This document shows, piece after piece, positions 746-63,758 of a DNA stretch of 64,000 bases. Below the pieces are notes generated by a model. It saw only the letters and a program-made list of their open reading frames with translations, had not been told where the DNA came from and did not search any database. Source of the stretch: Paenibacillus sp. FSL M7-0420 (GTDB taxonomy: Bacteria; Bacillota; Bacilli; Paenibacillales; Paenibacillaceae); contig NZ_JBBOCJ010000001.1 in the NCBI RefSeq assembly GCF_038002345.1, positions 6,262,001-6,326,000 of the forward strand. Reading direction: 5' to 3'. The stretch's first letter is position 1; the number at the start of each line of letters is the position of its first letter. The translations under genes were made by a program, and so were the position numbers.

Positions 746-923
746 TTGCATAATGTACACTTAAAAACAGCGAAAAGGAAGGTTTGCCTCTTCTAGCTGT
801 AGTCTGTACAACTAAATCTGCCCCAAATGCTGAAAACCAGGGAACGCGGGGATTTTAATTGTACGAATTACAACTAAACGGACAATAGGTAGAAAACCAG
901 ACGTTTTAGTTGTACAAAGTACA
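746..923. repeat. Array 1 of phased TTGYA-N5-TRCA palindromes (4 units)
   Basis: There are four 14-bp cores at 746-759, 798-811 (reverse orientation), 859-872 and 910-923. The best is TTGTACAAAGTACAA, a perfect inverted repeat with 6-bp arms. Centre-to-centre distances are 52, 61 and 51 bp. Flanks are also conserved (TTTAGTTGTAC, CAATTAAGCC). The whole block is a diverged copy of the block at 23652-23830, including the order and orientation of the units. It lies about 210-390 bp upstream of xylB. Function unknown. Confidence 0.8.
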
Positions 924-1083
924 ATTAAGCCTACCACGTATGGACAGCTACGATAATCGGAACGCTGCAACCCCTCAGTAAGCGGTTTACCAAAGAGGTA
1001 TTTAAACCAACAACCCTAATCTGTGAATAGATGATGCTTCACCTTATAACAAGCGCCTCCACATAAGGGTCCGGCTAAGTCGA

Positions 1084-1261
1084 TTGTATTTCCTGCAATA
1101 GATTCCACTTAAATCAGCCGAAAATCATGAGCTATTGCATTTTGTACACTAGAATTCCTTGAAAAGGCTGTTCTGAACGTCATCCTCAAACATCTATTGT
1201 ACGAAATACAGCAGAATGCTATTTTCCAGCGAAAGCAGGGCATTCTATTGCACAAAATACA
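1084..1261. repeat. Array 1-prime of phased palindromes (4 units)
   Basis: Cores lie at 1084-1097, 1135-1148, 1197-1210 and 1248-1261, all in the same orientation, with start-to-start distances of exactly 51, 62 and 51 bp. Flanks follow the CTATTGYAC...ATACAGCAGA subtype shared with the array at 34659-34836. The array sits just downstream of the xylA terminator. Short reading frames across it look like accidental openings. Confidence 0.78.
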
Positions 1262-1302
1262 CTCACACATCCCTGCTCCTCAAGTAACCCCGCTATTCCG
1301 TA

Positions 1303-1344
1303 TTAAAAAGGGGCTGCCGAAGAATGCTCTCTTCAGCAACCCCC
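1303..1344 (-). terminator. Rho-independent terminator of xylA
   Basis: On the minus strand a GC-rich stem starting GGGGGTTGCTGAAGAG folds back on CTTCGGCAGCCCC and is followed by TTTTT. It lies 55 bp past the xylA stop codon and should separate xylA from xylB. Confidence 0.85.
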
Positions 1345-1398
1345 GTTGCGTGTATGCTCTAATGAATCTGCGGGCAATCCCGCAAATCCGGCAGCGTC

Positions 1399-2718
1399 TT
1401 ACTCAGCAGTCAGGATGTACTGGTTAAGTGTAGCTCTCAGCAGTTCCTGACGTCCGGATTTGTTCGGACGCGGGCTCTCGTTGTTCAGCGCGTAGTCAGC
1501 CAGCGAAGCAAGTGTCGCTTTGCCGGATACGATGTCAGCGCCAACGCCTTCGTTGAAGCTGCTGTAACGCTCAGCGATGAAGTTCTCGAATACGCCGTCT
1601 TCAAGCAGCTTGGCAGCTACCTTCAGGCCCTTAGCGTATACGTCCATACCGGAGATGTGTGCCAGGAACAGATCCTCAGGCTCGAAGGAAGGACGGCGTA
1701 CTTTGGAGTCAAAGTTGATTCCGCCTTTGCCCAGACCATCGTTCTTCAGTACTTCATAGAGAGTCAGTGTAGCATCATAGATGCTTGCAGGGAATTCATC
1801 TGTATCCCAGCCGAGCAATGGATCGCCCTGGTTCGCATCCAGTGATCCCAGCATGCCGTTGATACGGGCTACATGCAGCTCGTGCTCGAACGTGTGGCCA
1901 GCCAGTGTAGCATGGTTAGCTTCAAGGTTCAGCTTGAAGTGCTTATCCAGGTTGTACTTCTGCAGGAAGGCGATGCAAGTTGCTGCATCGAAGTCATACT
2001 GGTGCTTGGTAGGCTCTTTCGGCTTAGGCTCGATCAGGAACTGGCCGTCGAAGCCGATTTCCTTCGCATAATCAACAGCCATGGTGAACAGGCGGGCAAT
2101 GTTGTCCTGCTCCAGCTGCATATTGGTGTTCAGCAGTGTCTCATAACCTTCACGGCCGCCCCAGAATACATAGTTGTCAGCGCCCAGACGTTTACCCACT
2201 TCCAGACCCTTCTTCACTTGTGCAGCAGCGTGTGCGAATACGTCAGCGTTGCAGGTGGAGCCTGCACCGTGCATGTAGCGCGGGTTGGTGAACATGTTGG
2301 CAGTGTTCCACAGCAGTTTTTTGCCGGAAGCCTTCATGCCTTGTTCAAGGATGTCTACGATGGTATCGATGTTGCTGTAGAATTCACGCAGGGACGCGCC
2401 TTCAGGAGCGATGTCCACATCATGGAAGCAGTAGTACTGCAGGTCCATCTTCTCCATGAATTCGAATGCTGCTTCTGCACGGGCCTTAGCCTTGTCCAGT
2501 GTGCTCAGTTTGTCCCAAGCGCGGACTGCAGTTTCAGCGCCGAACGGGTCGGAACCGCCAGCTGTTAATGTATGCCAGTAAGCCATTGCAAATTTCAGGT
2601 GTTCTTCCATTGTTTTGCCGGCTACGATTTCTGTAGGATTGTAGAATTTGAATGCATAAGGGTTGGTGGAACGGCTTCCCTCGTAAGAGACCTTGCTCAC
2701 TGTTTCAAAATAAGCCAT
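1399..2718 (-). CDS. xylA: Xylose isomerase
   Basis: The enzyme interconverts D-xylose and D-xylulose with divalent metal in the cytoplasm. The 439-residue length is normal for the class II (longer) isomerases of Firmicutes. Visible family motifs are [10 protein letters not shown] with the catalytic His, [10 protein letters not shown], the metal-binding [14 protein letters not shown] stretch and [16 protein letters not shown]. The ATG at 2716-2718 is preceded by AGGAGGA. Upstream, divergent from xylR, lie a cre-like site and a 25-bp inverted repeat that fits a XylR operator, so xylose induction and glucose repression are expected. A terminator follows the gene. Identification is very secure. 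Confidence 0.98.
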
Positions 2719-2750
2719 TTGTAAAATCCTCCTCGATATTTTGCTTCGCC

Positions 2751-2764
2751 CGCAAGCGTTTACA
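2751..2764. promoter_or_regulatory. CcpA cre-like site in the xylA leader
   Basis: CGCAAGCGTTTACA differs from the usual TGAAAGCGTTTACA-type cre core at two positions. It lies between the xylA ribosome binding site and the putative XylR operator, a position suited to blocking transcription when a preferred sugar is present. Inferred from sequence match and position only. Confidence 0.6.
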
Positions 2765-2788
2765 GCATCATCTTAACACATCTCTTTG

Positions 2789-2813
2789 ACTTTGTATATT
2801 GGTTAAACAAAGT
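2789..2813. promoter_or_regulatory. Putative XylR operator
   Basis: ACTTTGT - 11 bp - ACAAAGT is a perfect 7-bp inverted repeat; the strand facing xylA reads TTTGTTTAAC, similar to known Bacillus xyl operators. It lies 71 bp upstream of xylA in the divergent xylA/xylR region, where XylR would act. Confidence 0.65.
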
Positions 2814-3018
2814 TTTTTTATTTTTATATTTCCCGCCGCGGGATCGTCCTGATCCAACGGATATAGTTGCATTTTTACGCTCTTCATTCTAGACTAGGGG
2901 GCATACCCGCGCAGCGGAGAGCGGCTTCACAGCTACCCTCTTCCCGTCTGTGCAAGGGCCCCGTAATCTGTCGGTTCTATTCTGATAAATTCTTATATTG
3001 TAAAAGGAAGTGTGCTGC

Positions 3019-4179
3019 TTGAAAGTTACCGGTGATCAGGCGCTGGTCAAAAAAATAAACAAATCGATTATTTTACATACCATCCGTATGCATTCCCCCA
3101 TCTCGCGGGCCAAGGTATCCGAGGTGACAGGCCTGAATAAAGCTACCGTCTCCAATCTGGTAGCCGAGCTATGCGGGCAGTCGCTGGTTACTGAGGCCGG
3201 ACCCGGAGAATCCAGCGGCGGGCGTAAGCCGCTGATGCTGCATTTTAACGAAATGGCGGGAAGTGTGATCGGGATCGAGCTGCGCGTGAAACAGCTGAAG
3301 GCCGTACTCTGCAACCTGGGGGGCGGCATTCTTCATGAACGGGACAGTGTGCTGGAGAACCACGACTTTCCTTATGTGCTCGGGCAGATGCAGCAGATGA
3401 TCTCGGAGCTGATCGCTACGGCTCCGCCTTCTCCTTACGGACTCGTCGGCATTGGTGTCGGCGTCCCGGGAATGGTCGATGAGCAAGGCGTTGTCCTGTT
3501 CGCGCCCAACCTGGGCTGGGAGATGGTAGACCTGCGTTCGATTCTGGAAAGCGCCTTCGCGGTGCCGGTCACCATTGATAATGAGGCCAATGCAGGCGCC
3601 CAGGGTGAGCTGAACTTCGGGGCGGCGCGTGATGTGCGCCATCTGCTGTATATCAGCGCCGGCTCGGGGATCGGGTCGGGGATTATTATCGGCGGAGAAT
3701 TGTATAAGGGCGCGCGCGGTTATGCGGGTGAGACTGGACATATGACGATTGAAGCGGAAGGCAAGCCGTGCAGCTGCGGCAGCCGGGGCTGCTGGGAGCT
3801 GTACGCCTCCGAGAAAACCTATGATAACTCCGGCCTCGCCCTCCCGGCCCGCACAACGACCGGACTGGTCAAGTATGCGCTTGAGGGGCAGCCCGATACG
3901 CTAAGCCATTTCAACTCCATCGGCGAGTATCTGGGGATCGGAGTGACCAATCTGATCAACAGCTTCAACCCTGAGCTGATCGTGATCGGCGGCGCTCTAT
4001 CGGAGGCGGAGCCATGGCTCGGCGAGCCGCTGCGCCGGGTCGTAGCTGAGCGTACCCTCCCCTACCACAAGCAGCAGCTTGAAATCACCTTCTCCAGGCT
4101 GGGAAGCCGGGGAACCATGATTGGAGCGGGTTTTTCAGCGGTGATGCATTTTCTGGGCAACATCCGCGTCACTCTATAG
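3019..4179 (+). CDS. xylR: Xylose repressor, ROK family
   Basis: This is a cytoplasmic DNA-binding repressor that releases the xyl operator when xylose binds. An N-terminal winged helix (about residues 15-65: SPISRAKVSEVTGLNKATVSNLV) is followed by a ROK sugar-binding domain. That domain carries GIGVGVPGMVD, a DNEANA motif, GSGIGSGIIIGG and the zinc-binding CSCGSRGCWE near residue 251. I place the start at the TTG at 3019, ten bases after AAAAGGA. An upstream in-frame GTG at 3010 overlaps that binding site and is less likely. The gene is divergent from xylA across 300 bp holding the operator and cre site. The sugar specificity is inferred mainly from this neighbourhood. Confidence 0.92.
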   Translation: MKVTGDQALVKKINKSIILHTIRMHSPISRAKVSEVTGLNKATVSNLVAELCGQSLVTEAGPGESSGGRKPLMLHFNEMAGSVIGIELRVKQLKAVLCNLGGGILHERDSVLENHDFPYVLGQMQQMISELIATAPPSPYGLVGIGVGVPGMVDEQGVVLFAPNLGWEMVDLRSILESAFAVPVTIDNEANAGAQGELNFGAARDVRHLLYISAGSGIGSGIIIGGELYKGARGYAGETGHMTIEAEGKPCSCGSRGCWELYASEKTYDNSGLALPARTTTGLVKYALEGQPDTLSHFNSIGEYLGIGVTNLINSFNPELIVIGGALSEAEPWLGEPLRRVVAERTLPYHKQQLEITFSRLGSRGTMIGAGFSAVMHFLGNIRVTL

Positions 4180-4273
4180 ACTCTTAAACTCTTATATTTC
4201 TTAAAATCGCCGCATTTTTTTCTGCATTTCCTGCTCTAAAAGGAGTGGCTATCCTATATAATAAGGATACTTG

Positions 4274-4289
4274 TGTGACATTTGTCACC
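4274..4289. promoter_or_regulatory. CRP/FNR-type inverted repeat
   Basis: TGTGA-CATTTG-TCACC matches the TGTGA-N6-TCACA pattern of CRP/FNR-family sites with one mismatch. The inner GTGACA-TT-TGTCAC is a perfect palindrome. It lies just downstream of a TATAAT box (4257-4262) and 33 bp before the small membrane protein gene, a position suited to repression. The regulator is not identified. Confidence 0.45.
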
Positions 4290-4321
4290 ACACCCTTTTT
4301 TCTGAAATGGAGAGAGAATCC

Positions 4322-4516
4322 ATGACTTATGTTGATACGTCTGATATTTCGGCGAAGATGTTCATCGCGGTGCTGCTGCTGCTGCTCATCATTGCTCCGC
4401 TCGTCAGCCTCGGTGTCCTGCGTCTGTTCCAGTCGCGGAAGAAATCGGGATTCCTCCTTATCGCCAGCGGCATTGCCGTCTATGCTGTCTTTCAGATGTT
4501 CATGTCTCTTACCTGA
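4322..4516 (+). CDS. Small two-helix membrane protein, function unknown
   Basis: The 64-residue protein has two predicted membrane segments: FIAVLLLLLIIAPLVSLGVL (about residues 14-33) and a second from about 43 to 62. They are separated by a short basic loop, RLFQSRKKSG. The start ATG at 4322 has GGAGAGAG seven bases upstream; an earlier in-frame ATG at 4271 lies inside the CRP/FNR-like repeat and has no binding site. No family is recognised. It stands alone between xylR and the convergent glutaredoxin gene, with its own TATAAT box and a palindromic operator candidate, so its expression is probably conditional. The binding site and hydrophobicity pattern support it being real. Confidence 0.65.
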   Translation: MTYVDTSDISAKMFIAVLLLLLIIAPLVSLGVLRLFQSRKKSGFLLIASGIAVYAVFQMFMSLT

Positions 4517-4635
4517 GGCCTGCAGGCAGACAGGAATGACGCAAGCAAGTGGAGAAGCAGCATTTAAGATTGTTCATATTCGCTGAAGCAGGCCAACGGG
4601 CAGATTTAAATGTTGTTTTTCCTTCGTACGCACGC

Positions 4636-4668
4636 AAAAAGCCGCCTCCCTCCGGGAAGCGGCTCTAT
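4636..4668 (-). terminator. Terminator after the glutaredoxin-like gene
   Basis: On the minus strand AGCCGCTTCCCGGAGG pairs with GGAGGCGGCT and is followed by TTTTT. It lies between two convergent genes and may also stop transcription from the small membrane protein gene. Confidence 0.8.
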
Positions 4669-4689
4669 TTATTTCAGGACTGCCGGCTA

Positions 4690-4926
4690 TTATTCTGTTG
4701 CAGCCAAAGCCTTGTCGAACTTGGTCTTGTTCATACCGACGATCTTCATATCCCCGATCACCGTAATCGGCACAGCTCTCATGCCCATATCCCACACCTG
4801 CTGGGCGTACTCTTCATTCTGCTCGATGTTGCGTTCTTCGTACGCTACTCCTTTATCGCTCAGGAAGCTTTTCACCTGACGGCAATGCGGGCAATTCGTC
4901 GATGTGTACACAATTACATTCTCCAT
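4690..4926 (-). CDS. Glutaredoxin-family thiol-disulfide protein
   Basis: A 78-residue thioredoxin-fold protein with the redox-active CPHC motif at residues 12-15 (TNCPHCRQVK) and the cis-proline motif AVPITVIG. It resembles the NrdH/YruB-type glutaredoxin-like proteins, which are small cytoplasmic disulfide reductases usually recharged by thioredoxin reductase rather than glutathione. The gene immediately follows trxB on the same strand, 83 bp apart, which supports that partnership. The start has AGGAGG ten bases upstream. The exact client, for example ribonucleotide reductase, cannot be read from the sequence. Confidence 0.85.
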   Translation of the reverse strand: MENVIVYTSTNCPHCRQVKSFLSDKGVAYEERNIEQNEEYAQQVWDMGMRAVPITVIGDMKIVGMNKTKFDKALAATE

Positions 4927-5009
4927 AGTATGATTTCCTCCTCGTATCTAAGTATTAGACTCTGAGCTCTATTGTAGCACCGGAATCCCTGCTTCTCCAA
5001 ATGCAGGAC

Positions 5010-5951
5010 TTACATAATTACTGCGCTGTGCTCCAGACTCTCGATATATTTCTCGGCATCCATAGCCGCCATACAGCCGCTGCCTGCCGCCGTAATGGCC
5101 TGTCTGTAACGGGTATCCTGCACGTCGCCGCAGGCGAATACGCCGGGAATGTTCGTCTCGGAGGTTCCGGGATTCGATACGATATAACCGTTCGCATCTG
5201 TAGTGATCTGTCCGCCCAGGAATGACGTATTCGGATGATGGCCAACCGCCACGAATACCCCGCTGGCTTCAATGAACTCTTCCTCGCCAGTCTCGTTGTT
5301 GATCACCTTCAGACCGGTTACCCCCTTGTCTCCGGCAATCACTTCAACAGGGGTACGGTTCAATCCCCAGGTCACTTTGGCGTTATCGCGGACACGGTCC
5401 TGCATAATCTTCGAGGCCCGCAGCTCTTCACGGCGGTGCACCAGGGTTACCTTGGAAGCAAAACGCGTCAGGAAGCCCGCTTCTTCAAGCGCGGAATCGC
5501 CGCCGCCGACCACCACGATCTCTTTGCCGCGGAAGAAAAATCCGTCACAGGTAGCACAAGTGCTGACCCCGCGTCCGATGTTATCCTGCTCCCCGGGAAT
5601 GCCGAGATACTTAGCTGTGGCACCCGTTGAGATAATCAGCGTATCCGTAATCAGTGTGCCCATACCCTCCACGTTCAGCTTGAACGGACGGTCGCCCAGC
5701 TCCACGCTGTTCACCCAGCCGGTCACGAACTGTGCGCCGAAACGCTCAGCCTGCTTGCGCATATTATCCATCAGATCGGGACCCAGAATGCCTTCCGGGA
5801 ATCCCGGGAAGTTCTCGATCTCCGTTGTAGTCGTAAGCTGTCCGCCTGGCTGCGGACCTTCGATCACGAGCGGGTTCAGGTTCGCCCGGGCCAAATATAT
5901 AGCAGCTGTCAATCCGGCCGGTCCAGTACCGACAATAATTGATTTGTACAT
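5010..5951 (-). CDS. trxB: Thioredoxin-disulfide reductase
   Basis: This FAD/NADPH flavoenzyme reduces thioredoxin and related cytoplasmic thiol proteins. Its 313 residues match the bacterial low-Mr type. It shows an N-terminal FAD-binding GTGPAGLTAA, the redox CATC pair near residue 132 (STCATCDGFF), the NADPH-binding GGGDSALEEA and the C-terminal FAD motif GVFACGDVQD. It probably forms a transcription unit with the downstream glutaredoxin-like gene. A clear sigma-A type promoter and a PerR-like box lie upstream, suggesting peroxide-responsive control. Identification is very secure. Confidence 0.97.
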   Translation of the reverse strand: MYKSIIVGTGPAGLTAAIYLARANLNPLVIEGPQPGGQLTTTTEIENFPGFPEGILGPDLMDNMRKQAERFGAQFVTGWVNSVELGDRPFKLNVEGMGTLITDTLIISTGATAKYLGIPGEQDNIGRGVSTCATCDGFFFRGKEIVVVGGGDSALEEAGFLTRFASKVTLVHRREELRASKIMQDRVRDNAKVTWGLNRTPVEVIAGDKGVTGLKVINNETGEEEFIEASGVFVAVGHHPNTSFLGGQITTDANGYIVSNPGTSETNIPGVFACGDVQDTRYRQAITAAGSGCMAAMDAEKYIESLEHSAVIM

Positions 5952-5996
5952 GATGATATCCCCCTTGAGATGGACGGAAAAGACGCCATTCCTTAT

Positions 5997-6011
5997 TTAA
6001 AATAATTATAA
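5997..6011. promoter_or_regulatory. PerR-like box in the trxB leader
   Basis: Read on the minus strand, TTATAATTATTTTAA matches the 7-1-7 PerR consensus TTATAAT-N-ATTATAA at 13 of 14 positions. It lies just downstream of the -10 box of the trxB promoter, a place where binding would block transcription. The region is AT-rich, so a chance match is possible. Confidence 0.5.
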
Positions 6012-6021
6012 TCTAGTATTT

Positions 6022-6050
6022 ATTATGATCACCTCAAGGGGAGTTGTCAA
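6022..6050 (-). promoter_or_regulatory. Sigma-A-type promoter of trxB
   Basis: TTGACA (6045-6050 on the minus strand), a 17-bp spacer and CATAAT (6022-6027) form a near-consensus housekeeping promoter about 70-100 bp upstream of trxB. Confidence 0.75.
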
Positions 6051-6113
6051 TATGCCAGACCCGTTGTAAACGCTCCTTTTTGTGAACAATTCAATTTTAA
6101 GCAATCTAAAGTG

Positions 6114-8081: not shown

Positions 8082-8123
8082 GAACAATCACCTTCCTGAA
8101 TGGTTTTGGTTAAGCGCACACTT

Positions 8124-8142
8124 GAGAATGAGAGCCATTATT
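8124..8142. promoter_or_regulatory. Fur-like box 2 (weaker)
   Basis: GAGAATGAGAGCCATTATT matches 14 of 19 positions of the classic Fur box GATAATGATAATCATTATC. It lies 43 bp upstream of the ATPase start. Support comes mainly from the stronger box 92 bp further upstream. Confidence 0.45.
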
Positions 8143-8160
8143 AACACCCTTAAAATGACA

Positions 8161-8191
8161 CATGCTGCCCCGGCATCGCCGGGACAGCATG
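8161..8191 (-). terminator. Strong hairpin in the ATPase leader (terminator or attenuator)
   Basis: CATGCTGCCCCGGC and GCCGGGACAGCATG form 14-bp arms with one mismatch around a 3-base loop. On the minus strand the hairpin is followed by TGTCATTTT. It sits between the two Fur-like boxes, inside the leader if the upstream box marks the promoter. It could be an attenuator or a second terminator for read-through from the right. Confidence 0.55.
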
Positions 8192-8234
8192 TTGAATGGG
8201 TATGGTAGTTGAGGATAATGACTGAGAGATAAAT

Positions 8235-8253
8235 GAGAATGATAATCATTGTT
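8235..8253. promoter_or_regulatory. Fur-like box 1 (stronger)
   Basis: GAGAATGATAATCATTGTT matches 16 of 19 positions of GATAATGATAATCATTATC. In the 7-1-7 view, TGAGAAT-G-ATAATCA matches the Bacillus Fur box at 12 of 14 arm positions. It lies about 150 bp upstream of the ATPase gene. Confidence 0.6.
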
Positions 8254-8534
8254 GCAATAGAGCAACTATATTTCCTTCACGCAACTTATAACTATACTAT
8301 ACCACGCTATCCGCAAATGTAAACCGGGGGATGAGCCTGATTTTTTGGGAAAGAGGGCTGGTCTGGAGAAAGAGTACAGATTGCTGGGGCGGATGAAGAG
8401 AATTCGGGTTAGGCGGGTACCCGCTCTCATGAGATTCAAAGGGATTTATGCACTTCATTGATCCAGCGATTACAAGCGGTGGGGCCATGGCTGCACCGTT
8501 CCTGGATAATTCAACCGGCTGATCGTTGAACGCC

Positions 8535-8588
8535 AAAAAAGTGCCCCGTACGGGCGCTGCTAGAGGCCGCCCACGGGACACTTTTATA
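8535..8588 (-). terminator. Terminator of the GH94/GH2 operon
   Basis: A long stem (GTGTCCCGTGGGCG pairing with CGCCCGTACGGGGCAC) is followed by TTTTTT on the minus strand and is flanked by AAAA/TTTT on both sides, so it may work in both directions. It lies 38 bp after the GH94 stop. The rest of the 8254-8534 gap holds only a lone sequence at about 8436-8455 resembling the 51-bp units at 16501-16800. Confidence 0.8.
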
Positions 8589-8626
8589 TGCTGCTTATAC
8601 ACTCTGGTTCTACAGGAAGCCTACCG

Positions 8627-16500: not shown

Positions 16501-16800
16501 GATGTGGTGTATTTGTACCCTTCATTCGCGCACCAACGGCGGATTTCCGGAAATGTAGTGTATTTATACCTTTCATCCGCGCTCCAATGGCGGATTGGTG
16601 GAATTGTAGTGTATTTATACCTTTCATTCGTGGATCAACGATGAATTGGCGGAAATATAGTGTACTTATACCCTTCATCCGCGCTCCAACGGCGGATTTA
16701 CGGAAATGTAGTGTATTTATACCCTTCATCCGCGCTCCAACGGTGGATTAGCGGAAATGTGGTGTATTTATGCACTTCATCCGCGCTCTAACGGCAGATT
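16501..16800. repeat. Array 7: six direct repeats of 51 bp
   Basis: Six units of AATGTAGTGTATTTATAC followed by CCTTCATCCGCGCTCCAACGG lie at a spacing of 50, 51, 51, 51 and 51 bp (TGTATTT at 16509, 16559, 16610, 16661, 16712 and 16763). A seventh, partial unit is at 16978-17000, beyond the G-rich satellite. Because 51 is a multiple of 3, the minus strand reads as 17-residue peptide repeats, but no ribosome binding site or protein family supports a gene. The period equals that of the other palindrome arrays. The rest of the 16200-17141 gap shows no gene. Confidence 0.85.
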
Positions 16801-23651: not shown

Positions 23652-23830
23652 TTGTATGCTGTACATTTAAAAACCGCGAAACGGTAGAATCTGCTCAGCT
23701 AACTGTAGTCTGTACAACTAAATCTGCCCCATGGGGTGAGAATCCGGGGGCAGATGGGAATTTAATTGTACGAAATACAGCTAAACGGATATTTGGCGGT
23801 ACAGCGGACGATTTAGTTGTATGGAGTGCA
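23652..23830. repeat. Array 2 of phased palindromes (4 units, copy of array 1)
   Basis: Cores lie at 23652-23665, 23704-23717 (reverse), 23766-23779 and 23817-23830, with centres 52, 62 and 51 bp apart. Order, orientation and flanks match array 1 at 746-923 (for example TGTAGTCTGTACAACTAAAT in both), while the DNA between cores has diverged. It fills most of the 23578-23919 gap, 75 bp upstream of the beta-helix gene. No gene is seen in this gap. Confidence 0.82.
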
Positions 23831-23919
23831 ATTAAGCCTACTGCTTCCGTCTGCCCCTTAATCGGGACACGGCAAACCCTGCGGCTGCCCGCTTGAAATG
23901 CGTGGCTTGGTTAAGTTGG

Positions 23920-28332: not shown

Positions 28333-29304
28333 TTACCACAAGCCTTTATTGAAGCGCCGGGCAATGGCGTTGGATATCAGCACCAGGGTCAGTGCCACGA
28401 GGGAATCGAACATCCCCAGTGCAGCGGTCAGGCTGAACTGCCCTCCCTGTAGTCCTATCGCGTAAATATACGTACTTATAACCTCGGAGATCCCCGATAC
28501 AATCGAATTTTGCAGCACGTACACATGGTCGAAGCCTACCTCCATGACCCGCCCCATGGCCAGAATCAGCATAATAACGATGGTTGGACTGATCCCGGGC
28601 AGCGTGATATGGCGGATCTGCTTCCATTTGCCCGCTCCGTCCATACTCGCCGCCTCATAGAGACTGGGGTCGATGGAGGTCAGCGCAGCCAGATAGATAA
28701 TTGCATTGAAGCCCGCATCCTTCCAGATTCCCGAGCCGAGGAAGATCGAGACCCAGGACCACTCTTTGAACAGGAAGGGAAAAGCCTGGCCGGTCAGCTT
28801 CTCAACCACCGCATTGGCTACCCCGGTCTGGGCAAAGATTGTCACCACCAGCCCGCCGACAATGACCCAGGAGAAGAAGTACGGGAGGTAGACGAGAGTC
28901 TGGACCGATTTTTTGAACCACTTGTTCCTGACTTCATTCAGCATAATCGCCAGGGCAATCGGGAACGGAAAGCTGACCAGCACCGACAATATACTGAGCA
29001 CCAGCGTATTGCGGATAATCTGCACCGACTGCGCCTGGGTGAACAGATTGGTGAAATTGTCCATGCCCACCCACCGGCTGCCCCATACCCCCTCATAGAA
29101 GGTATAATCCTTGAAGGCGATGACCAGCCCCAGCATGGGGGTGTATTTGAAAATCATATAAAATGCGATAACCGGAACGAACATGACCCACAGGGGGACA
29201 TTATTCTTGAAGCGGCGGGTCTGCCAAAAACGTCTGCGGCTGCTTCCGGTCTGCCGTGAAGTGTCCAGACGCAGCACCGCCTCACTGCTTGTATTCGCTT
29301 TCAT
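28333..29304 (-). CDS. Carbohydrate ABC transporter permease (LplB-like)
   Basis: A 323-residue membrane protein and partner of the LplC-like permease. A cytoplasmic basic N-terminus is followed by VPLWVMFVPVIAFYMIFKYTPMLG, FKDYTFYEGVWGSRWVG and the EAA loop SLYEAASMDGAGKWKQIRHITLPG. It ends with FNKGLW, as is usual for LplB. I start it at the ATG at 29304, which has GAAAGGAGG seven bases upstream; an upstream in-frame ATG at 29328 lacks such a site. Confidence 0.94.
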   Translation of the reverse strand: MKANTSSEAVLRLDTSRQTGSSRRRFWQTRRFKNNVPLWVMFVPVIAFYMIFKYTPMLGLVIAFKDYTFYEGVWGSRWVGMDNFTNLFTQAQSVQIIRNTLVLSILSVLVSFPFPIALAIMLNEVRNKWFKKSVQTLVYLPYFFSWVIVGGLVVTIFAQTGVANAVVEKLTGQAFPFLFKEWSWVSIFLGSGIWKDAGFNAIIYLAALTSIDPSLYEAASMDGAGKWKQIRHITLPGISPTIVIMLILAMGRVMEVGFDHVYVLQNSIVSGISEVISTYIYAIGLQGGQFSLTAALGMFDSLVALTLVLISNAIARRFNKGLW

Positions 29305-34658: not shown

Positions 34659-34836
34659 TTGTATTTACTACAGTAGATCTTCTCTTTAGCGGTTGTAAAA
34701 AGCGATCTGTTGCACTTTGTACAGCAGATTTCCGCAGAAAGGGTGTTTTGGGACCGTATACCGGAAATCTGTTGTATGGAATACATCAGAACGGATTTTA
34801 ACGCCGGATATGGCCTAATCTATTGCACAAAATACA
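34659..34836. repeat. Array 4 of phased palindromes (4 units)
   Basis: Cores start at 34659, 34710, 34772 and 34823, all in the same orientation, giving distances of 51, 62 and 51 bp, exactly those of array 1-prime. Flanks read ATCT(A/G)TTGYA and TACAGCAGATTT. It lies upstream of the hypothetical gene ending at 33157 and downstream of metY. The rest of the 34234-35174 gap shows no gene. Confidence 0.8.
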
Positions 34837-34968
34837 TTCGCCGCCCCGCTTCCTTGCGGATCAATTCCTCACGTACGCTTTTCTCACAAACCATCTCCTC
34901 ATTTCCTCATTTCCTCGTAAACACTCCTGCTCCTCCCACTACTCTCCATCCCACCTCCTGCTCCCGCC

Positions 34969-56008: not shown

Positions 56009-56083
56009 TCTCCCACTCCTCTCTATGTTAGTTTTCATTACACATAAATCTGTATCCGCTTCGCATTCTTGCTACGGCCTTTC

Positions 56084-56099
56084 CTGCTAACGCTTACAT
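56084..56099. promoter_or_regulatory. CcpA cre-like site between the divergent mannoside operons
   Basis: CTGCTAACGCTTACAT matches the WTGNNANCGNNNNCAW cre pattern at 15 of 16 positions. It lies between the importer operon and the divergent GH38-GH125 operon, so glucose repression of both is plausible. The rest of 56009-56365 shows no gene. Confidence 0.6.
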
Positions 56100-56365
56100 C
56101 CCAAATTGTAGAGAAACTAAGCTGACATCGTAAATATGTAGGTTGTGCATTGTCATGTTAAAAGAGTGTAAAACCGCGCTGCTACGGGGCTTATGAGCTG
56201 AATAACTTCTACGGGCCGCTACTGGCTGACTGCCGTAAATGTGTGAATTATGAACCCTCCTCCCCCCTGCAAAAGTTACATATTGTGATCCCCCGGCAGG
56301 TATGCAAACATTTGCTACGAATGCCGACACTACAACACCGACTCAAGATATAGGAGGTTTCTGTC

Positions 56366-59121
56366 ATGACCCGTACAACTGCCCACCTGATCTCACACAC
56401 CCACTGGGACCGGGAATGGTATATGCCTTATGAGCGTCACCATGTGCTGCTGGCGAAGCTGATGAACGAGCTGCTGGAGACGCTGGAGCAGGACGAGCGC
56501 TACCGGTACTTCCACCTGGACGGACAGACCATTATTATTGAAGATTATCTGCAGGTTCATCCTGAGCGGAGAGAGCAGCTGGAGCGGTTCATCCGCGAAG
56601 GCCGGATTGTCATCGGTCCCTGGTATGTGCTCCAGGATGAATTCCTGACCAGCTCCGAGGCCAATGTGCGTAATCTGCTGATCGGCCACCAGGACGCAGC
56701 GAAATATGGCGTCATCTCGAAGCTCGGTTATTTCCCCGATTCCTTCGGCAATATGGGCCAAGCCCCCCAGCTTCTCCAGCAGGCTGACATCGGGACTGCG
56801 GTGTTCGGCCGCGGCGTGAAGCCGACAGGCTTCGATAACATGGTCGGCGAGCTGAACAGCACCAGCTATGAGTCGCCATACTCGGAGATGTACTGGGAAT
56901 CCCCGGATGGCTCAGTTGTGCTTGGACTGCTGTTTGCGAACTGGTACAGCAACGGCAATGAGGTGCCGGTGGATGCAGAGGAAGCCAAGGTCTTCTGGGA
57001 CCGAAAAATCGCGGATGCCGGCAAATACGCCTCCACCCCGGAGCTGCTGTTCATGAACGGCTGTGATCATCAGCCGGTGCAGCGTGATCTCGCGGATGCG
57101 CTGGAGACGGCCCGGAAGCTGTACCCGGACACGGACTTCGTCCACTCCAGCTTCGAGCAGTATCTGAAGGCGCTAGCGCCTTCGCTGCCTGAGGATCTGG
57201 TCACCGTGCACGGCGAGCTGCGCAGCCAGCATACGGACGGCTGGGGGACGCTGGTGAATACCGCTTCCGCCCGCGTCTACCTGAAGCAGCTCAACCAGCA
57301 GGGCCAGACGCTGCTGGAGAAGGGCGCGGAGCCGCTGGCGGCACTCGCTATCTGGTCAGCGGGCAGGCCTACCCCCATGCCCTGCTGACCTACGCCTGGA
57401 AGACCCTGATGCAGAACCACCCGCATGACAGCATCTGCGGCTGCAGTGTGGATGAGGTCCACCGCGAGATGATCAGCCGCTTCGACAAGAGCCGCCATGC
57501 AGGCGAGGCTATTATTGAAGACAGCCTGAAGGCGGTCTCCGCACAAATCGGAACCCGGAATGTTGCCGCCTGGGGCGAGTCTGCCCGTCCGGTGACGGTC
57601 TTCAATACCACCGGTTGGCAGCGCAGCGGGACGGTTAGCGTGGAGGTTATGTTCGCCAAGCGTTATTTCAAGGAAGGGCCGAATCCGGCGGCGATTGCCG
57701 AAGCGCTGGATCAGCTTCCGCTTGCGCTTGAGCAAGGGAGGCTGCTGGATGCTGAAGGACGGCATGTGGCTTGCCGGGCGGAGGATCTGGGCACCCGGTT
57801 CGGCTATGAGCTGCCGGACGACCAGTTCCGCAAGCCTTATATGGCCCGGATGGTCCGGCTGGCCTTCGAGGCCGCGCAGGTGCCGCCGCTAGGCTACAGC
57901 ACCTACGCCTGGGTAGAGTCGGCGGATGAGTCCGCCGGGGCTGCTGCTGAAGGTCCGCTTAAGCTGCTGGAACGTGGGATGGAGAATGAATTCATGGCTG
58001 TCCGTATCCGGGAGGACGGCTCTTACGATGTGGCCGACAAGCGGACGGGCCGCAGCTTCACCGGACTCGGCGTCTATGAGAACTGCGGCGATATCGGCAA
58101 TGAATATGTGTTCCGCCAGCCGGAGGGCGATGTGGCGCTGACGACCAAGGGCCTTGTCGCCCGGATCTCGCTGGCTGAGCATGAGCCTTACCGCATCACG
58201 TATGAAATCGTGCATGAATGGGCTATTCCCGCTTCCGCCGATGCTTCATTTGAGGATGAGAAGCGCAGAATGGTACCGTTCCGGCAGCGCAAGGCTGGAC
58301 GCTCTACGGAGCAAGTGCCGCTGCGGATTGTGACCCGGATTAGCCTGGAGGCCAGCGGGACCGGCGTTCAGGTCTCTGCCGCACTCAATAACCAGGCTAA
58401 GGACCATCGGCTGCGCGTCCTCTTCCCTACCGGGCTGGCCGCCTCGACCGTGCGGGCCGACTCCATCTTCGAAGCCGCAGAGCGCGGGATTGAACCAGCT
58501 CCGGACTGGATCAATCCGAGCAATGCCCAGCACCAGCAGGCTTACGCCAGTGTGTCGGACGGCAGCGCCGGACTGCTGGTGGCCAACCAAGGGCTGAACG
58601 AATACGAGGTGCTGCGGGACGGCAGCAATACGATTGCCGTTACCCTGCTGCGCAGCGTGTCGGAGTTGGGCGACTGGGGCGTGTTCCCTACACCGGAGGC
58701 CCAGTGCCTTGGCGAGCAGACCGTGGAATTCGCGGTCCGTCCCTTTGCCGGGGATGCGAATTGGACGGAGGCCTGCACCTGGGCCTATCAGTACCAGGCA
58801 CCTTGGTTCACGGTTCAAACCGGCTGGCAGGAGGGCTCCCTCCCTGCGGTCTATCAGCCGCTGGAATGGCAAGGCCGCACCCTGGCGCTGTCCGCCTTCA
58901 AAATGTCCGCAGACCATGAGGACATCATTCTGCGGTGGTTCAATCTGGCGGGCGCGGAGCAGGAGCTCGCGCTTACGCCGCATTTTCCCGTGGAGGCTGT
59001 CCATGCCAGTGATATTCTGGAACGGCGCAAACAACGGGAGATCCTGGATGAAGGCACTCTCCGCCGCTCTGTCGGCAAAGCTCAGATCGTCACCTATGCC
59101 CTAAAGCCCGTACAACCCTAA
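56366..59121 (+). pseudogene. Second GH38 alpha-mannosidase, broken by a frameshift
   Basis: An alpha-mannosidase of about 918 codons in two frames. The 5' part (56366-57388) has the metal site SHTHWDREWYMPYE and FPDSFGNMGQ with the nucleophile Asp. Near 57349 the frame is lost; the sequence resumes as YLVSGQAYPHALLTYAWKTLMQNHPHDSICGCSVDEVH in another frame and runs to 59121. Restoring one T (GCT-TAT-CTG) would join the parts in register, so a single-base deletion explains it. The first product ends soon after in GRPTPMPC. HDSICGCS is a GH38 substrate motif lost from the first part, so activity is unlikely. AGGAGG precedes the start. Mutation and assembly error cannot be told apart here. Confidence 0.88.
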
Positions 59122-59148
59122 ATTCACTATGCCAGGAGGAGTTATACT

Positions 59149-60429
59149 ATGAAGCTGCCCGCTTCCATTACCGCTTATCTGAATGAGGCCGATGAACGGC
59201 TTGCGCATCACCCGAAACTGCAGCAGTTGTTCCGCAACTGCTTCCCGAACACACTGGAGACCACGACCAAGCTGCTGGAAGACGGCACTACCTTCGTGTT
59301 CACCGGCGATATTCCGGCCATGTGGCTGCGCGATTCGACGGAGCAGGTGCGCCACTATATCCCTTTTGCCAAGCATGACCCTGAATTGCAGCGGATTCTC
59401 CGCGGCCTGATTGCCCGCCAGATGTTCTATGTGAATATTGATCCATACACCAACGCCTTCAACGAGACGGCAAGTGACAAGCATTACCGCGATACGGACG
59501 ACTGTAACTTGAACCCGTGGATGTGGGAGCGCAAATATGAGCTCGACTCCCTCTGCTTCGTCGTTCAGCTGGCTTATATGTACTGGAAGGAAGCGGAGCA
59601 GACCGACATCTTCGATGCTGCCTGCTATCAGGCGCTGACCTCCATCGTGATCACGATCGAGACCGAGCAGCATCACGGGGAGAAGTCGCCTTACCACTTC
59701 ATCCGGCAGACGCTCCAGGATACGGAGACGCTGCACAATAACGGGCGCGGGATGCCGGTCAACTATACAGGGATGAGCTGGTCGGGCTTCCGCCCAAGCG
59801 ATGACAGCTGCGAATTCGGCTACAATATTCCCTCGAATATGTTCGCTGTGGTCATTCTGGGGTATATCGGCGAGATAGCAAGCGAGGTATACCAGGACGA
59901 GCGGCTGGCGGCGAGAGCGGCGAAGCTGCGCAAGGAGATCGACTTCGGCATCCGTACCTACGGCATCGTGACCCATCCGAAATACGGCAGAATCTACGCC
60001 TATGAGACGGACGGCTACGGCAATTACTCGCTGATGGACGATGCCGGAACCCCGGGACTGATCTCCATTCCTTATATTGGTTATGTGGGTGTGGAGGATG
60101 AGATTTATCAGAATACCCGCCGGTTCGCGCTCAGCTTCGATAACCCCTTCTATTTCGAGGGCAAGCACGCCAAGGGCATCGGCAGTCCGCATACACCGGG
60201 CGGTTACGTCTGGCATATGGCGCTGTCGATGCAGGCGCTTACGGCGGATAACGATGAGGAGATCAAGGAGCTGATCGACATGCTGATCCGCACCGACGCC
60301 GATACCGGCTACATGCACGAAGGCTTCCACCCGGATAATCCGGCGGACTTCTCGCGCGAATGGTTCGCCTGGTCCAACAGCCTGTTCGCTACGCTGATAG
60401 GCAAGGCGATGGATAAGGGGCTGGTTTAA
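59149..60429 (+). CDS. GH125 exo-alpha-1,6-mannosidase
   Basis: A 426-residue (alpha/alpha)6 enzyme of GH125 (formerly DUF1237), metal-independent exo-alpha-1,6-mannosidases acting on N-glycan and mannan fragments. Matching motifs are TGDIPAMWLRDSTEQVRHYI, RGMPVNYTGMSWSGFRPSDDSCEFGYNIPSNMFA with the probable acid Asp, and YMHEGFHPDNPADFSREWFAWSNSLFA with the probable base Glu. The start has AGGAGG upstream and follows the GH38 stop by 27 bp, so the two are one operon. No signal peptide: it works on imported glycans. Confidence 0.95.
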   Translation: MKLPASITAYLNEADERLAHHPKLQQLFRNCFPNTLETTTKLLEDGTTFVFTGDIPAMWLRDSTEQVRHYIPFAKHDPELQRILRGLIARQMFYVNIDPYTNAFNETASDKHYRDTDDCNLNPWMWERKYELDSLCFVVQLAYMYWKEAEQTDIFDAACYQALTSIVITIETEQHHGEKSPYHFIRQTLQDTETLHNNGRGMPVNYTGMSWSGFRPSDDSCEFGYNIPSNMFAVVILGYIGEIASEVYQDERLAARAAKLRKEIDFGIRTYGIVTHPKYGRIYAYETDGYGNYSLMDDAGTPGLISIPYIGYVGVEDEIYQNTRRFALSFDNPFYFEGKHAKGIGSPHTPGGYVWHMALSMQALTADNDEEIKELIDMLIRTDADTGYMHEGFHPDNPADFSREWFAWSNSLFATLIGKAMDKGLV

Positions 60430-60620
60430 GGGGGTAACCCTGAACGGATAGCTCATCCTGCACCAAGCAAGTGGAATAACGTATCTTAATTCGCCCATTG
60501 GGCTAGAGTTACCGGCAACAGGTGGAAAAACAGCAACTAATATAGTTAGTTTAAGGTACTTTGGATGAATGGGGAGAATTTAGTTGGAGGAAATCCATCT
60601 ATCATACTTCCTCTATACAC

Positions 60621-60666
60621 AAAACGGCTGCGGCTCCCTTGAACTCAAGGAGGCCGCAGCCGTTTC
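60621..60666. terminator. Bidirectional terminator between GH125 and deoC
   Basis: AAAACGGCTGCGGC and GCCGCAGCCGTTT form a long stem with an inner CCTTGA/TCAAGG pairing, flanked by A and T runs on both sides. It serves both convergent genes. The rest of 60430-60620 shows no gene. Confidence 0.85.
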
Positions 60667-60688
60667 TATGTGTCTAGCTTACTTCTGC

Positions 60689-61366
60689 TTAGTAGCCGCT
60701 CTGGCTCTGCTCGCCCTTGGCGATGGCTACGCCGCCGCTGGTGCCGATCCGGCTGGCGCCTGCGCCGATCATCACCAGCGCGTCTTCCGCGCTGCGGACA
60801 CCGCCGGAGGCCTTCACGCCGATCTCAGGACCGACCGTTGCCCGCATCAGGGCAATATCTTCCTTCGTGGCTCCCCCGGTCGAGAAGCCGGTTGAGGTCT
60901 TCACGAAGTCTGCGCCCGCTTCTACAGCAAGCTTGCAGGCACGGACCTTCTCCTCTTCAGTCAGCAGGCAGGCCTCAATAATCACCTTGGTCAGCGCCTT
61001 GCCGCGTGCGGCTTCGACTACGGCAACCATATCGCGCTTGACCAGCTCGTCATTGCCGTCCTTCAGTGCGCCGATATTAATGACCATATCCACCTCACCG
61101 GCACCGTTCGCAATGGCATCCTTCGTCTCAAAAGCCTTCGTCTCAGGCGTCGATGCCCCGAGCGGGAAGCCGATTACTGTACATACCTTCACTTCCGGTG
61201 TATCCTTCAGCACGGCATGCGCAGTAGCGACCCAAGCCGGATTCACGCACACAGAAGCGAATTTGTAGGCTTTGGCCTCTTCGGCAAGCTTGATAATATC
61301 GTCTTTCCGGGCATCCGCCTTCAGCAGCGTATGATCAATAATCCCGGATATTGTAGTTTCACTCAT
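60689..61366 (-). CDS. deoC: Deoxyribose-phosphate aldolase
   Basis: A 225-residue class I aldolase that splits 2-deoxyribose 5-phosphate into glyceraldehyde 3-phosphate and acetaldehyde in nucleoside salvage. It shows [38 protein letters not shown], the Schiff-base Lys in FVKTSTGFS and [10 protein letters not shown]. The ATG at 61366 has GGAGG eight bases upstream; an in-frame start at 61381 is weaker. It stands alone between a terminator and the chemoreceptor gene. Confidence 0.97.
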
Positions 61367-61516
61367 GTTCAATTCCTCCATATAATCGGTAATAGATGTT
61401 CACATCCCCTGTAATCATACCAATAGTCGGACGCTTTTGAAAGCTGGAGGGCATAACATCTGCTAATCCTGTATCCACTCCGGACAGTATAGATCAAGCG
61501 CACCGAACCCCTAGCC

Positions 61517-63274
61517 CTATACATTCACCTGCCGGATGGCCTCCCGCAGATCGCCCGTACTCGCGCTGACGCTCAGCGAAGCCTCGTAGACTTCTTTGAT
61601 TCGCGCCAATTGCAGGTCAGTCAGCTCACGGATCTCCCGGGTCTGCTCCGAGACCTCTCCGGCAATATCGGCCATGCTGCCCACCGCTGCCGCAACCTCC
61701 TCTGAGCCGGCGGAGAGCTGCTCCGCTGTCGCCGACACATCAATGATCTGTCCGGCCACCTCCCGGAAGGCGGCGGAGGCCTCCAGCAGAGCAGCCTCCG
61801 CTTCGGCTGACATCCGCACCCCTTCCCTCACTTCAGCGGATGCTTCCGTCATCTGTACCCCGATGCTCGCCGAAGCCTGGCTGATATGCAGCAGCAGCTC
61901 GGCTACCCGCTCGGCCGAGGCTGCGGAGCCTTCCGCCAGCTTGCGCACTTCACCGGCTACGACAGTGAAGCCTCTGCCGTGCTCCCCCGCATGCGCCGCC
62001 TCAATCGAGGCATTCAGCGCCAGCAGCTTCGTCTGATCCGCAGACTGCCTGATCGCAGCCAGCGCACCTTCAATCTCATCCGTGTACTCTTGCAGCCGCA
62101 GCACAATATCCAGCGTCTCCCCGGTGGATACAGAGATCGATTTCATTTGCTGGTTAGTGTGGTTCATGGACGTCTGGGACGCCTCTGCAATGTCCAGCGC
62201 CTTGACTGCGAATTCCGAGACCGCAGCCGAGGCCTCCGAGATGCGCGAGATGCCCAGCGCCATCTCTTCCATAGCCACAGCGCTGCTCTGTGCGCCTTCC
62301 GTCTGCGAGTTAGCCCCGGCATGGATATCGCTGATTCTGCCGCTCACCGTCTCACTCATTTTCAGCACATCATCGGCATTCCTGGCGAAGGTCTCGGAGG
62401 AGCCGTAGAGACTGTCAGATGCGGTAGACACCCCGGATACCATCCCTTTCACTCTGGCATTCAGATCCCCTGACATCTGGAGCATCGCCTGATAAGCCCT
62501 GCCAATCTCATCCCGGGAGGTGACCGGACGGGCATGCAGGATACGGGCTGCTCCGGCGAGATCCCCTTCAGCCATCGTGCCCGCGCTCTCTGTAATCGTC
62601 ACCAGCGGACGCAAGGACCGGGATACGAACCAGGCCAGCACCGCGAGTGCGCCCAGAGACAGAGCTAGAATAATACTATAGAGCGGCAGGCTCTCCATCA
62701 GGACATCACGGGTCAGCGTACTAAGCACAGCAACATCCGTATCAATGCCCAGCGCCCCGACCAGTTTCCCAGTGGTGTCCTTCATAGGAACGAATGCCGA
62801 GATATAATCCCCGTATTCGGGATTGCTGATCAGCGGCGTGCTGGCATTCTCTCCGGCAAGCACAGCCGTAACTGCGGCCGCAGGCATATCGGTAGTCTCA
62901 TTAATCCCCGAAGCCAGCGGGTCTCCCTCCGGCCTGCCGTCAATCATCAGCTGCGGCTGACGGGCATCATCAATCCTTACAAAATATACATAACGGGCAC
63001 CAATCGACTTCCGGAACTGATCCAGTTCATGGCGGAGTGACCAGTACAGGTCCGACTCCTGCGGATCGGCCAGGAATTCGCTGTAGCGGCCGGGATCAAT
63101 CTGTGTCACATAATGGCTGGCAATACTCATGTTGTAGCTGCTGATCGTCCCTTTGACCGCTGATCCGGTGTTCACCCACTGAATGGCGGCATTGCCTGCT
63201 GTAATGCAGAGAATCACTAAAGTCATAACACAGAGAATACGGGCAATCAGTCTGGTTCGGATAAAAGAAAACAT
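61517..63274 (-). CDS. Methyl-accepting chemotaxis protein
   Basis: A 585-residue membrane chemoreceptor. TM1 (about 10-30) is followed by an extracellular Cache-like sensor with YVYFVRIDD and [13 protein letters not shown]2 (about 195-217), a HAMP domain ([22 protein letters not shown]) and a long signalling coiled coil follow, with the hairpin tip [35 protein letters not shown] that contacts CheA/CheW. The ligand is unknown. The start has AAAGGGAAGG upstream. The leader carries a compact hairpin (63430-63469). Confidence 0.95.
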
Positions 63275-63429
63275 GGAGGCCTTCCCTTTCGCGCATCACA
63301 ATTGCGTGGTTATAGTAGGGCCATCCGATAAAGCAATGACAAATGTCCCTCTACCGGAAAATTTCGACAAACTTTTCAAAAACCCTTTTCCAAAGACGGC
63401 GCAGACTATTAAAATTTGAAAATCAAGTG

Positions 63430-63469
63430 GAAACGGCTTTGCTGTCTTTTTAAAGGACGGTACCGTTTC
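63430..63469 (-). other. Compact hairpin in the chemoreceptor leader
   Basis: On the minus strand GAAACGG pairs with CCGTTTC around an inner GTC...GAC stem with a GCAAAGCC strand. It lies 155 bp upstream of the chemoreceptor start. GACAGCAAAGCC recalls part of the c-di-GMP-I riboswitch, but the other conserved half (GGCAAACC) is absent. Confidence 0.4.
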
Positions 63470-63590
63470 GGCGAGAAATAGAAGGATAATGGATAGCGTG
63501 AAACCTATACATTCTTATATTTGAACAAAATCATCCTGCGGGTGAACGATGCTAATGCCTCTCTCACCGTCCGCTTTAAGGAGCAGTAAT

Positions 63591-63758
63591 GTTGCAATTT
63601 TGGCAGGATTCCTCTATACCTTTTACGGGTTGAAGTACAATGTTGCACTATTTGCATAAATTTCGGTGTTTTGAGCAAGTTAGCGCTGAATTTGTTGCAT
63701 TTCGTGCAGGATTTCAGCATTGACCGCTTCTTTGGGGCTGTATTGTTGCATTTTTGGC
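63591..63758. repeat. Array 6 of phased palindromes (4 units)
   Basis: Cores start at 63592, 63643, 63695 and 63746, same orientation, at distances of 51, 52 and 51 bp. Units read TGTTGCA-N6-GGCAGGATT or close variants; the first and last end identically in GGCAGGATTCCTCT. It fills the stretch upstream of the chemoreceptor. No convincing gene lies in 63275-63910. Confidence 0.82.

Follow-up and report, generated by a model that had tools for sequence, protein, structure and literature searches.

Intergenic dyad arrays at near-whole-turn spacing in Paenibacillus: probable short mobile repeats enclosing a putative array of dimer-binding sites

Intergenic DNA of Paenibacillus sp. FSL M7-0420 carries arrays of short dyads at a pitch of about 51 bp, which are probably noncoding short mobile repeats whose interior forms a putative array of dimer-binding sites on one face of the DNA. 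A common geometry and a wide spread of the arrays, together with the shared ends, target, orientation and turnover of the elements that carry them, underlie this reading.

The window, that is, the whole 64-kb stretch analysed, contains seven four-site arrays with 28 dyads and one array of six direct units, all with the 51-bp pitch (Table 1). The array family described in the earlier note is real and was understated there. Its array at 16501 is indeed regular, but is built on another motif, with six direct repeats that are each exactly 51 bp long. The seven arrays were listed with a tolerance of two mismatches over ten defined core positions; at three mismatches, six further matches of lower quality and out of phase appeared within B1, B2, C2 and C3 and were left out. 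The strict core TTGYA-N5-TRCA occurred 20 times in 64 kb, with 19 copies inside arrays and the exception at 28510; 100 dinucleotide-preserving shuffles averaged 0.7 copies and never gave more than 3. Ten phased pairs (50-52 or 61-63 bp) were present in the real sequence and 0 in any of the 100 shuffles. The subtypes proposed from the flanks were recovered as TTAGTTGYA (A), CTRTTGYA (B) and ATTGTTGCA...GCAGGATT (C). Steps within the four-site arrays read 51/62/51, 51/63/51, 51/52/51 or 51/52/52, in agreement with the claimed spacing near five and six turns. An Rfam scan of the window gave no match and no intron, in line with the view that the arrays belong to no named repeat or RNA family. The pairing of A beside B seen in A1/B1 was repeated at several other loci, and E-like dyads were also placed after several other C arrays.

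Table 1. Arrays and adjoining features in the window (dyad positions; steps between successive dyads in bp)
Feature	Position	Strand	Description
Array A1	746..924	none	dyads 746, 797, 859, 910; 51/62/51; relatives in own genome
Array B1	1084..1262	none	dyads 1084, 1135, 1197, 1248; 51/62/51; adjoins A1
Array D	16507..16773	minus (A-rich-centre strand)	six direct 51-bp units, core GTGTATTTATAC
Array A2	23652..23831	none	dyads 23652, 23703, 23766, 23817; 51/63/51
Array C1	32694..32862	none	dyads 32694, 32745, 32797, 32848; 51/52/51; site 3 inverted
Array B2	34659..34837	none	dyads 34659, 34710, 34772, 34823; 51/62/51
Array C2	45461..45630	none	dyads 45461, 45512, 45564, 45616; 51/52/52; mixed orientation
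C/E element right end (RE)	63523..63547	minus	small hairpin then ATTTTGTTC; flanks C3
Array C3	63592..63760	minus	four direct dyads 63592, 63643, 63695, 63746; 51/52/51
Single E-type dyad	63824..63849	minus	ATTGTATTCGGTTTTTCGTATACAAT; adjoins C3

When core distances were collected over 1.264 Mb of the same genome, the histogram proposed as a check was not random and peaked at 51, 62, 103, 113, 154 and 164 bp. Pairs at 51 bp numbered 56, whereas none of five control motifs exceeded 2 pairs at any distance. Across four stretches plus 29 loci, 38 clusters were spaced 51/62/51, and adjacent distances of 35-70 bp fell at 41 bp (4), 50-52 bp (160) and 62-63 bp (53), with 3 others. Exact 51/62/51 spacing was found in 20/27 related loci of other genomes, where this spacing was favoured because the loci were gathered by BLAST and then by a profile of arrays selected for it. 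In 64 of the 190 pairs among the 20 exact loci, spacer identity was at chance level (0.28 versus 0.25 when shuffled) and site identity was 0.76, bearing out the claim that spacing is held while the DNA between cores differs. In one genome of another genus, each of the three loci seen had a central distance of 74 bp, about 2 bp more than seven turns. Because neighbours are approximately 4, 5, 6 or 7 turns apart (41, 51, 62 and 74 bp), the sites all point to almost the same face of the double helix. Distances kept near whole turns without conservation of the spacers favour a multi-site DNA-binding protein.

The 51-bp pitch is shared with further palindrome families (the families are labelled A to H). 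E cores (TCGGTTTTTCGA) occurred 324 times in the FSL M7-0420 genome and 3 times for the reversed control, with 187 E-core pairs at 51 bp; the same genome has dozens of A and C loci. The best period was 50-53 bp in 83/125 regions, a tally that cannot serve to test the period, as these regions were chosen by similarity at those lags; the shared pitch is based on a separate scan of all lags. Orientation could be assigned by motif to just 42 of the 83 phased regions, and 40 of these 42 pointed with replication when the terminus was placed at the GC-skew extreme (3.743 Mb). With this boundary, the array at 3786402 points the wrong way; a terminus at 3.787 Mb, placed partly from the arrays themselves, would give 41/42. 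In convergent gaps, 15 of 16 oriented phased regions pointed with replication (3.743 Mb boundary). These families and their replication orientation, like the terminator-like target and family-wide spread described below, go beyond the earlier note.

Arrays of types C and E lie in elements with a left end (AGGAAATTATGATTTTC...), the arrays, and a right end made of a hairpin and ATTTTGTTC. The left-end motif had 21 matches, versus 0 for the control; 18 of them read as elements, 16 of which carry arrays. Matches to the right-end profile at a low threshold were mostly due to chance, and only four with at least 22 of 30 positions were kept. Upstream of 15/18 left-end elements there was a T-run with a hairpin at or below -14 kcal/mol, a count that has no random-site baseline, and the remaining three had a weaker hairpin as scored. 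All 18 were oriented with replication. At 389660, an 8-bp duplication surrounds an array that is missing from the relative G046. Inspection by eye of nine C/E copies (L226, L227, L231-L234, L241, L243 and L244) revealed no target duplication. Among 22 array-bearing alignment gaps of the FSL M7-0420 genome, a set that excludes arrays aligning outright, 12 were array-free in G046 (93.6% identical) and 3 contained a different family there. Arrays of types A and B are carried by a separate element with the inverted ends CTAGT...CATCAG, represented by a 732-bp copy at 3521693. Since C/E ends have no clear inverted repeats, only the A/B element is MITE-like in being a noncoding element with terminal inverted repeats. 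A search of four stretches for an autonomous A/B element, using inverted-end pairs up to 4.5 kb apart, returned one MITE-like copy and one presumed chance pair. Mobilisation of the RAYT/REPIN kind was considered for the E array that adjoins a Y1 transposase gene at 3404314 and was rejected, as this gene stands beside tnpB, the arrangement of an ordinary IS605. A search of the genome for stand-alone Y1 transposases (PF01797) gave two genes, of which one is broken and the other, intact, is the neighbour of tnpB. Points that weigh against the main reading include the single target duplication, the mixed site orientation in C1 and C2, the 74-bp centre and the fact that no autonomous copy was found; the correlated within-site pairs and the comparison with Ss-LrpB, both given below, count against it as well.

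Profile searches detected the four-site design in 95/245 genomes of the family Paenibacillaceae and in 9/299 genomes of a class-level sample, all 9 within Paenibacillaceae. The open-licence literature, as represented by listings, the beginnings of abstracts and one survey searched by word, contained no account of these Paenibacillus arrays. The arrays could instead be elements of the host chromosome, namely docking sites at gene ends for a nucleoid or supercoiling protein, with mobility a mere means of spread; a docking-site role at gene ends has been proposed for BIMEs. Consistent with this, the design is present in 12/19 genera sampled, A arrays at orthologous positions retain their spacing, and divergent gaps are nearly avoided (5/80 loci in the genus and 1/24 outside it; background 111/483), with 12/24 out-of-genus loci between convergent genes (background 89/483). 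However, promoter avoidance is also expected of selfish repeats, and pneumococcal repeats are enriched between convergent genes (available text of PMC3049150). The turnover of C/E arrays relative to G046 also argues against a host element, which we regard as rather doubtful.

A structured RNA composed of hairpins, like the one predicted for BOX transcripts, is a very improbable alternative. Single array sequences do fold, and bases pair both inside a site and from one site to another. However, the covariation score of type A was 0.083 versus 0.105 when shuffled, and 498/500 shuffles reached the real score, indicating that type A arrays do not consist of RNA hairpins. The RNAalifold consensus for type A was just -4.57 kcal/mol, Rfam was empty for the window, and RNA has no need of whole-turn spacing; type A was dropped as a structured RNA after these folding and pair-covariation tests. 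C.A and G.T mismatches were about equally common (77 and 86 of 437). Within-site pairs at -9 and -10 correlated, which we ascribe to subtypes, and by pair counts the E-type sites form two subtypes with the dyad kept in each. Among the three options in the earlier note, a multi-site binding protein gains from the near-whole-turn spacing and unconserved spacers, and structured RNA is not supported for type A. The third, a mobile repeat, is supported for C/E by common ends, an array-free ortholog and gain or loss between close relatives, and for A/B by inverted ends.

Plain tandem slippage, with 51 bp as the mere unit length of duplicated repeats, is still less probable. The E, D and G arrays do consist of similar head-to-tail units in variable copy number, and slippage could explain copy-number change in E, but A arrays are not head-to-tail: they have a distinct central distance, inverted halves, and spacers of constant length that are unalignable between genomes. 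The sites resemble a 15-bp Lrp-type operator, but ordinary transcription-factor operators of one regulon, upstream of its targets, are hardly credible given that divergent (promoter) gaps are avoided and many arrays are mobile.

If the arrays are mobile repeats with a binding-site interior, each dyad would be the site of one dimer, with neighbours 4-7 turns apart; in A/B arrays, the sites form two pairs that face each other over the middle of the array. The array would be occupied cooperatively by an oligomeric protein, in the simplest case four dimers, that may bend or wrap its approximately 190 bp of DNA. C/E elements lie just 3′ of terminator-like hairpins and run with the replication fork, as would be expected if insertion used hairpins that become exposed on the template of the lagging strand; A/B arrays have their own vehicle, the inverted-end element. 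More tentatively, there may be a Paenibacillaceae-wide nucleoprotein system in which one protein family of diversified specificity reads dyads at a fixed five-turn pitch, arranged as two pairs with a central gap of roughly five, six or seven turns. Each of the families A to H would then be the address of a different paralog, and their vehicles would be small elements that insert into terminator hairpins of the lagging-strand template. Distances conserved across unconserved sequence are rare and point directly to a rigid protein-DNA complex. Given the replication polarity and the terminator-like target, laboratory strains of Paenibacillus could be used to test whether replication and transcription ends are linked to short mobile repeats.

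Several known systems share parts of this design. REP/BIME elements are likewise regular groups of intergenic palindromes (available text of PMC3733652, a survey whose main text lacks the word 'Paenibacillus'), whereas the arrays here have a fixed four-site geometry and the genome yielded no dedicated Y1 (RAYT) transposase. Group IIC introns insert at intrinsic terminators, and endonuclease-less introns prime from replication strands (available text of PMC4424553); insertion directly after a terminator-like hairpin is shared by the 15 elements noted above. In contrast, the present elements are a few hundred bp long and have no recognised intron ends, and Rfam found no intron in the window. In Lrp/AsnC proteins, several dimers bind regularly spaced sites and wrap DNA, and the operators TTGCAAAATTTGCAA and TTGTAATTTTTACAA follow the same TTGYA-N5-TRCAA plan, a likeness that we take as resemblance only. 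According to the available text of PMC4046817 and PMC2995911, Ss-LrpB wraps approximately 100 bp around three dimers in promoter regions, roughly 33 bp per dimer, whereas the pitch here is 51 bp and the four-site array, placed mostly at gene ends, runs over 154-164 bp between the centres of its first and fourth sites. BOX repeats of Streptococcus pneumoniae have fixed ends and a variable number of tandem modules, are noncoding, and are over-represented between convergent genes (available text of PMC3049150). The arrays here are also interspersed composite repeats, as compared by description rather than sequence, and the plan of a left end, none to many units and a right end was found in L226 (none), L231, L241 and L243. 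They differ from BOX in that the modules are dyads at whole-turn pitch, one pitch is common to several kinds of module, the insertions come after terminator-like hairpins, and a symmetric four-site form extends across genera.

Seven arrays of four dyads each were present in the window, and the strict core TTGYA-N5-TRCA occurred 20 times, compared with a mean of 0.7 and a maximum of 3 in 100 dinucleotide shuffles. Ten pairs of this core were in phase; none was found in any of the shuffles. The intergenic dyad arrays with conserved distances described in an earlier note are real. Its count of about 28 dyads held for the seven four-site arrays, in which sites are 51-52 or 62-63 bp apart, but the array near 16501 consists of six 51-bp units with another core. 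The tandem array to the right of C2 is perhaps a further family.

Arrays in the window and distances between their sites (bp)
Array	Position in window	Gaps or organization
A1		51/62/51
A2		51/63/51
B1		51/62/51
B2		51/62/51
C1		51/52/51
C2		51/52/52
C3		51/52/51
D	16507-16773	six direct 51-bp units, core unlike that of the other seven arrays
Tandem array right of C2	45728-45842	GGGAGCTATTGCCTACTCC-like units, step 25/26 (half of 51)

When TGYA-N5-TRCA was scanned in three stretches of the strain's own genome (1.264 Mb in total), 56 pairs lay 51 bp apart and peaks also appeared at 113, 103, 154, 62, 52 and 164 bp, whereas no lag held more than two pairs for any of five control motifs in the same sequence. 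The histogram thus has the 51- and 62-bp peaks that the note had anticipated. Tallied over four stretches plus the 29 loci L091-L119, adjacent distances of 35-70 bp were 50-52 bp (160), 62-63 bp (53) and 41 bp (4), with one each of 45, 48 and 67 bp. A combined fit of adjacent distances, out-of-genus loci and three 74-bp centres gave a resultant length of ~0.92 at periods of 10.2-10.4 bp, in agreement with the proposal that the sites lie on one face of the helix.

Exact 9-mer repeats at lags of 15-130 were most frequent at 51 (90 clusters), followed by 102 (78) and 42 (47), with a median of 8; other multiples of three were also raised and are ascribed to coding repeats. Other families thus have this pitch as well. 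Family E (AATGTAATCGAAAAACCGATTACATT and variants) is the largest: its 12-bp core occurred in 324 copies compared with 3 for a reversed control, with 187 pairs at 51 bp and 27 at 52 bp. Among 100 genus genomes, 13 carried at least 42 copies of this core and the others seven or fewer. In one E array (L201:1014-1337), one frame stays open and translates to a 17-residue repeat; ORFs inside E arrays are probably spurious gene calls.

BLAST detected related arrays in 37 of 100 genus genomes. At 27 loci (L093-L119, one genome per locus; the incomplete L092 was not counted), an exact 51/62/51 A-like array was found 20 times, and the remaining seven were either incomplete or differed slightly in spacing (51/62/50 or 51/62/52, for example). 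Because these 20 arrays were cut by the 51/62/51 spacing, their alignment (189 columns) is free of gaps. Spacer identity was <0.36 in 64 of the 190 pairs, averaging 0.28 (0.25 when shuffled), while sites were 0.76 identical, which bears out the claim that spacing is kept despite differing DNA between cores.

The note had offered three explanations: a structured RNA, a mobile repeat or a multi-site DNA-binding protein. Within-site pair covariation in the 20-array alignment was below that of shuffled data (0.083 versus 0.105; 498 of 500 shuffles equalled or exceeded the observed value) and C.A and G.T mismatches were about equally frequent over 437 sites (77 and 86, respectively), which speaks against a structured RNA for type A. 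Within-site pairs at positions -9 and -10 correlate over the 437 sites, which fits a mixture of subtypes.

The mobile-repeat explanation was supported for C and E arrays, which have common ends. Their left end, AGGAAATTATGATTTTCTTCTGTTGTGGATAAG, was matched 21 times, compared with 0 for a control (first 17 bases, up to two mismatches). Three matches (L239, L240, L242) were coding in appearance and had no array; 16 of the other 18 elements, all except L226 and L230, contained a C or E array. A small hairpin followed by TTTTGTTC terminates seven elements (L227, L229, L231, L232, L241, L243, L244), and variant right ends were found at L226, L233 and L234. Of the 18 elements, 15 are preceded by a T-run and a hairpin at or below -14 kcal/mol, scores being weaker at L229, L235 and L236; the T-run was absent at the three coding matches, the sole comparison set. 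A and B arrays lie inside elements with inverted ends CTAGT...CATCAG, such as a 732-bp copy. Of ten exact left-end matches, five were in Paenibacillus piscarius, P. silagei and P. tepidiphilus, seen as sequence matches alone; the other five, in unrelated organisms, are taken for chance matches.

The own genome yielded no stand-alone Y1 transposase such as REP systems have. It does contain an intact IS605-type tnpA/tnpB pair (3404314-3404676, L201), within a few hundred bases of an E array, and a broken second Y1 copy at 6789457. At L228 (7604495), an apparent insertion-sequence transposase gene splits a C array. The left ends of several E elements (L229, L232, L237) hold DnaA-box-like words such as GCGGATAAGTTGTGCATAA or GTGGATAAGTTGTCCATAA; the DnaA box consensus is TTATNCACA.

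A close relative, G046, is 93.6% identical and collinear over 0-400 kb. The 22 alignment gaps holding array motifs in the own genome had none in G046 in 12 cases, another family in three and the same family in seven, a tally that excludes arrays inside aligned blocks. The E element at 389660, bordered by an 8-bp duplication, is absent from G046. One orthologous gap, next to a shared A array, has an E-type array in the own genome (L053) and a C array in G046 (L099).

GC skew placed the origin at ~7.28 Mb and the terminus at ~3.74 Mb. Among C, D, E, G and H arrays, the A-rich-centre strand coincided with the leading strand in 40 of 42 cases, including 15 of 16 in convergent gaps, which transcription does not orient. 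The left ends all follow the direction of replication, the 8 on the right arm being forward and the 10 on the left arm reverse, and 31 of 34 C loci agree with this polarity (counted by hand at E up to 1e-3, with adjacent hits taken as one locus). Part of the polarity is expected because genes themselves favour one direction (62-76% in each stretch, by count). A and B arrays, with inverted halves, lack such polarity. By mechanical gene calls, arrays avoided divergent gaps, which make up 111 of 483 background gaps measuring 150 bp or more. The divergent share was 1/28 for A and 2/24 for C in the own genome, and 2/28 when loci from the rest of the genus were pooled with L092-L119 as fetched; in other genera, gaps were divergent (1/24), convergent (12/24) or tandem (11/24).

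A sequence-only profile built from the 20 exact arrays matched 95 of 245 family genomes in 12 of 19 genera (E up to 0.001; E-values are rough), the positives in some genera, g6 and g9, depending on matches that were few and weak. In the class sample, 9 of 299 genomes and 2 of 118 genera matched at E up to 1e-5, all in the strain's own family among the matches listed. Twelve chosen genomes (12, from eight other genera) supplied 26 out-of-genus loci, of which 17 had at least three strict cores in phase, two more were in phase with one site skipped, and seven had at most two cores in phase, five of them none; sites had visibly drifted at some low-count loci (L279, L285, L295, L298). All three loci in G120 (genus g4) showed 51/74/51 within 1 bp. 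L278, from G112 of another genus, has an unbroken run of 51/62/51/62/51/62/51.

Sites on one helical face at rigid distances would mean that the arrays are read by a multivalent protein complex, which the inverted halves would make two-fold symmetric; such a predicted complex corresponds to the note's multi-site DNA-binding protein. The array core resembles, by sequence alone, the sites given for the Lrp/AsnC protein Ss-LrpB, TTGCAAAATTTGCAA and TTGTAATTTTTACAA (PMC4046817). Lrp proteins are described as wrapping DNA (PMC2995911), but the pitch here is wider and the likeness is a resemblance of sites alone. The mobile repeats, with ends and variable modules, are like BOX elements as described in PMC3049150, and their target choice is like that described for group IIC introns (PMC4424553), a likeness in both cases.
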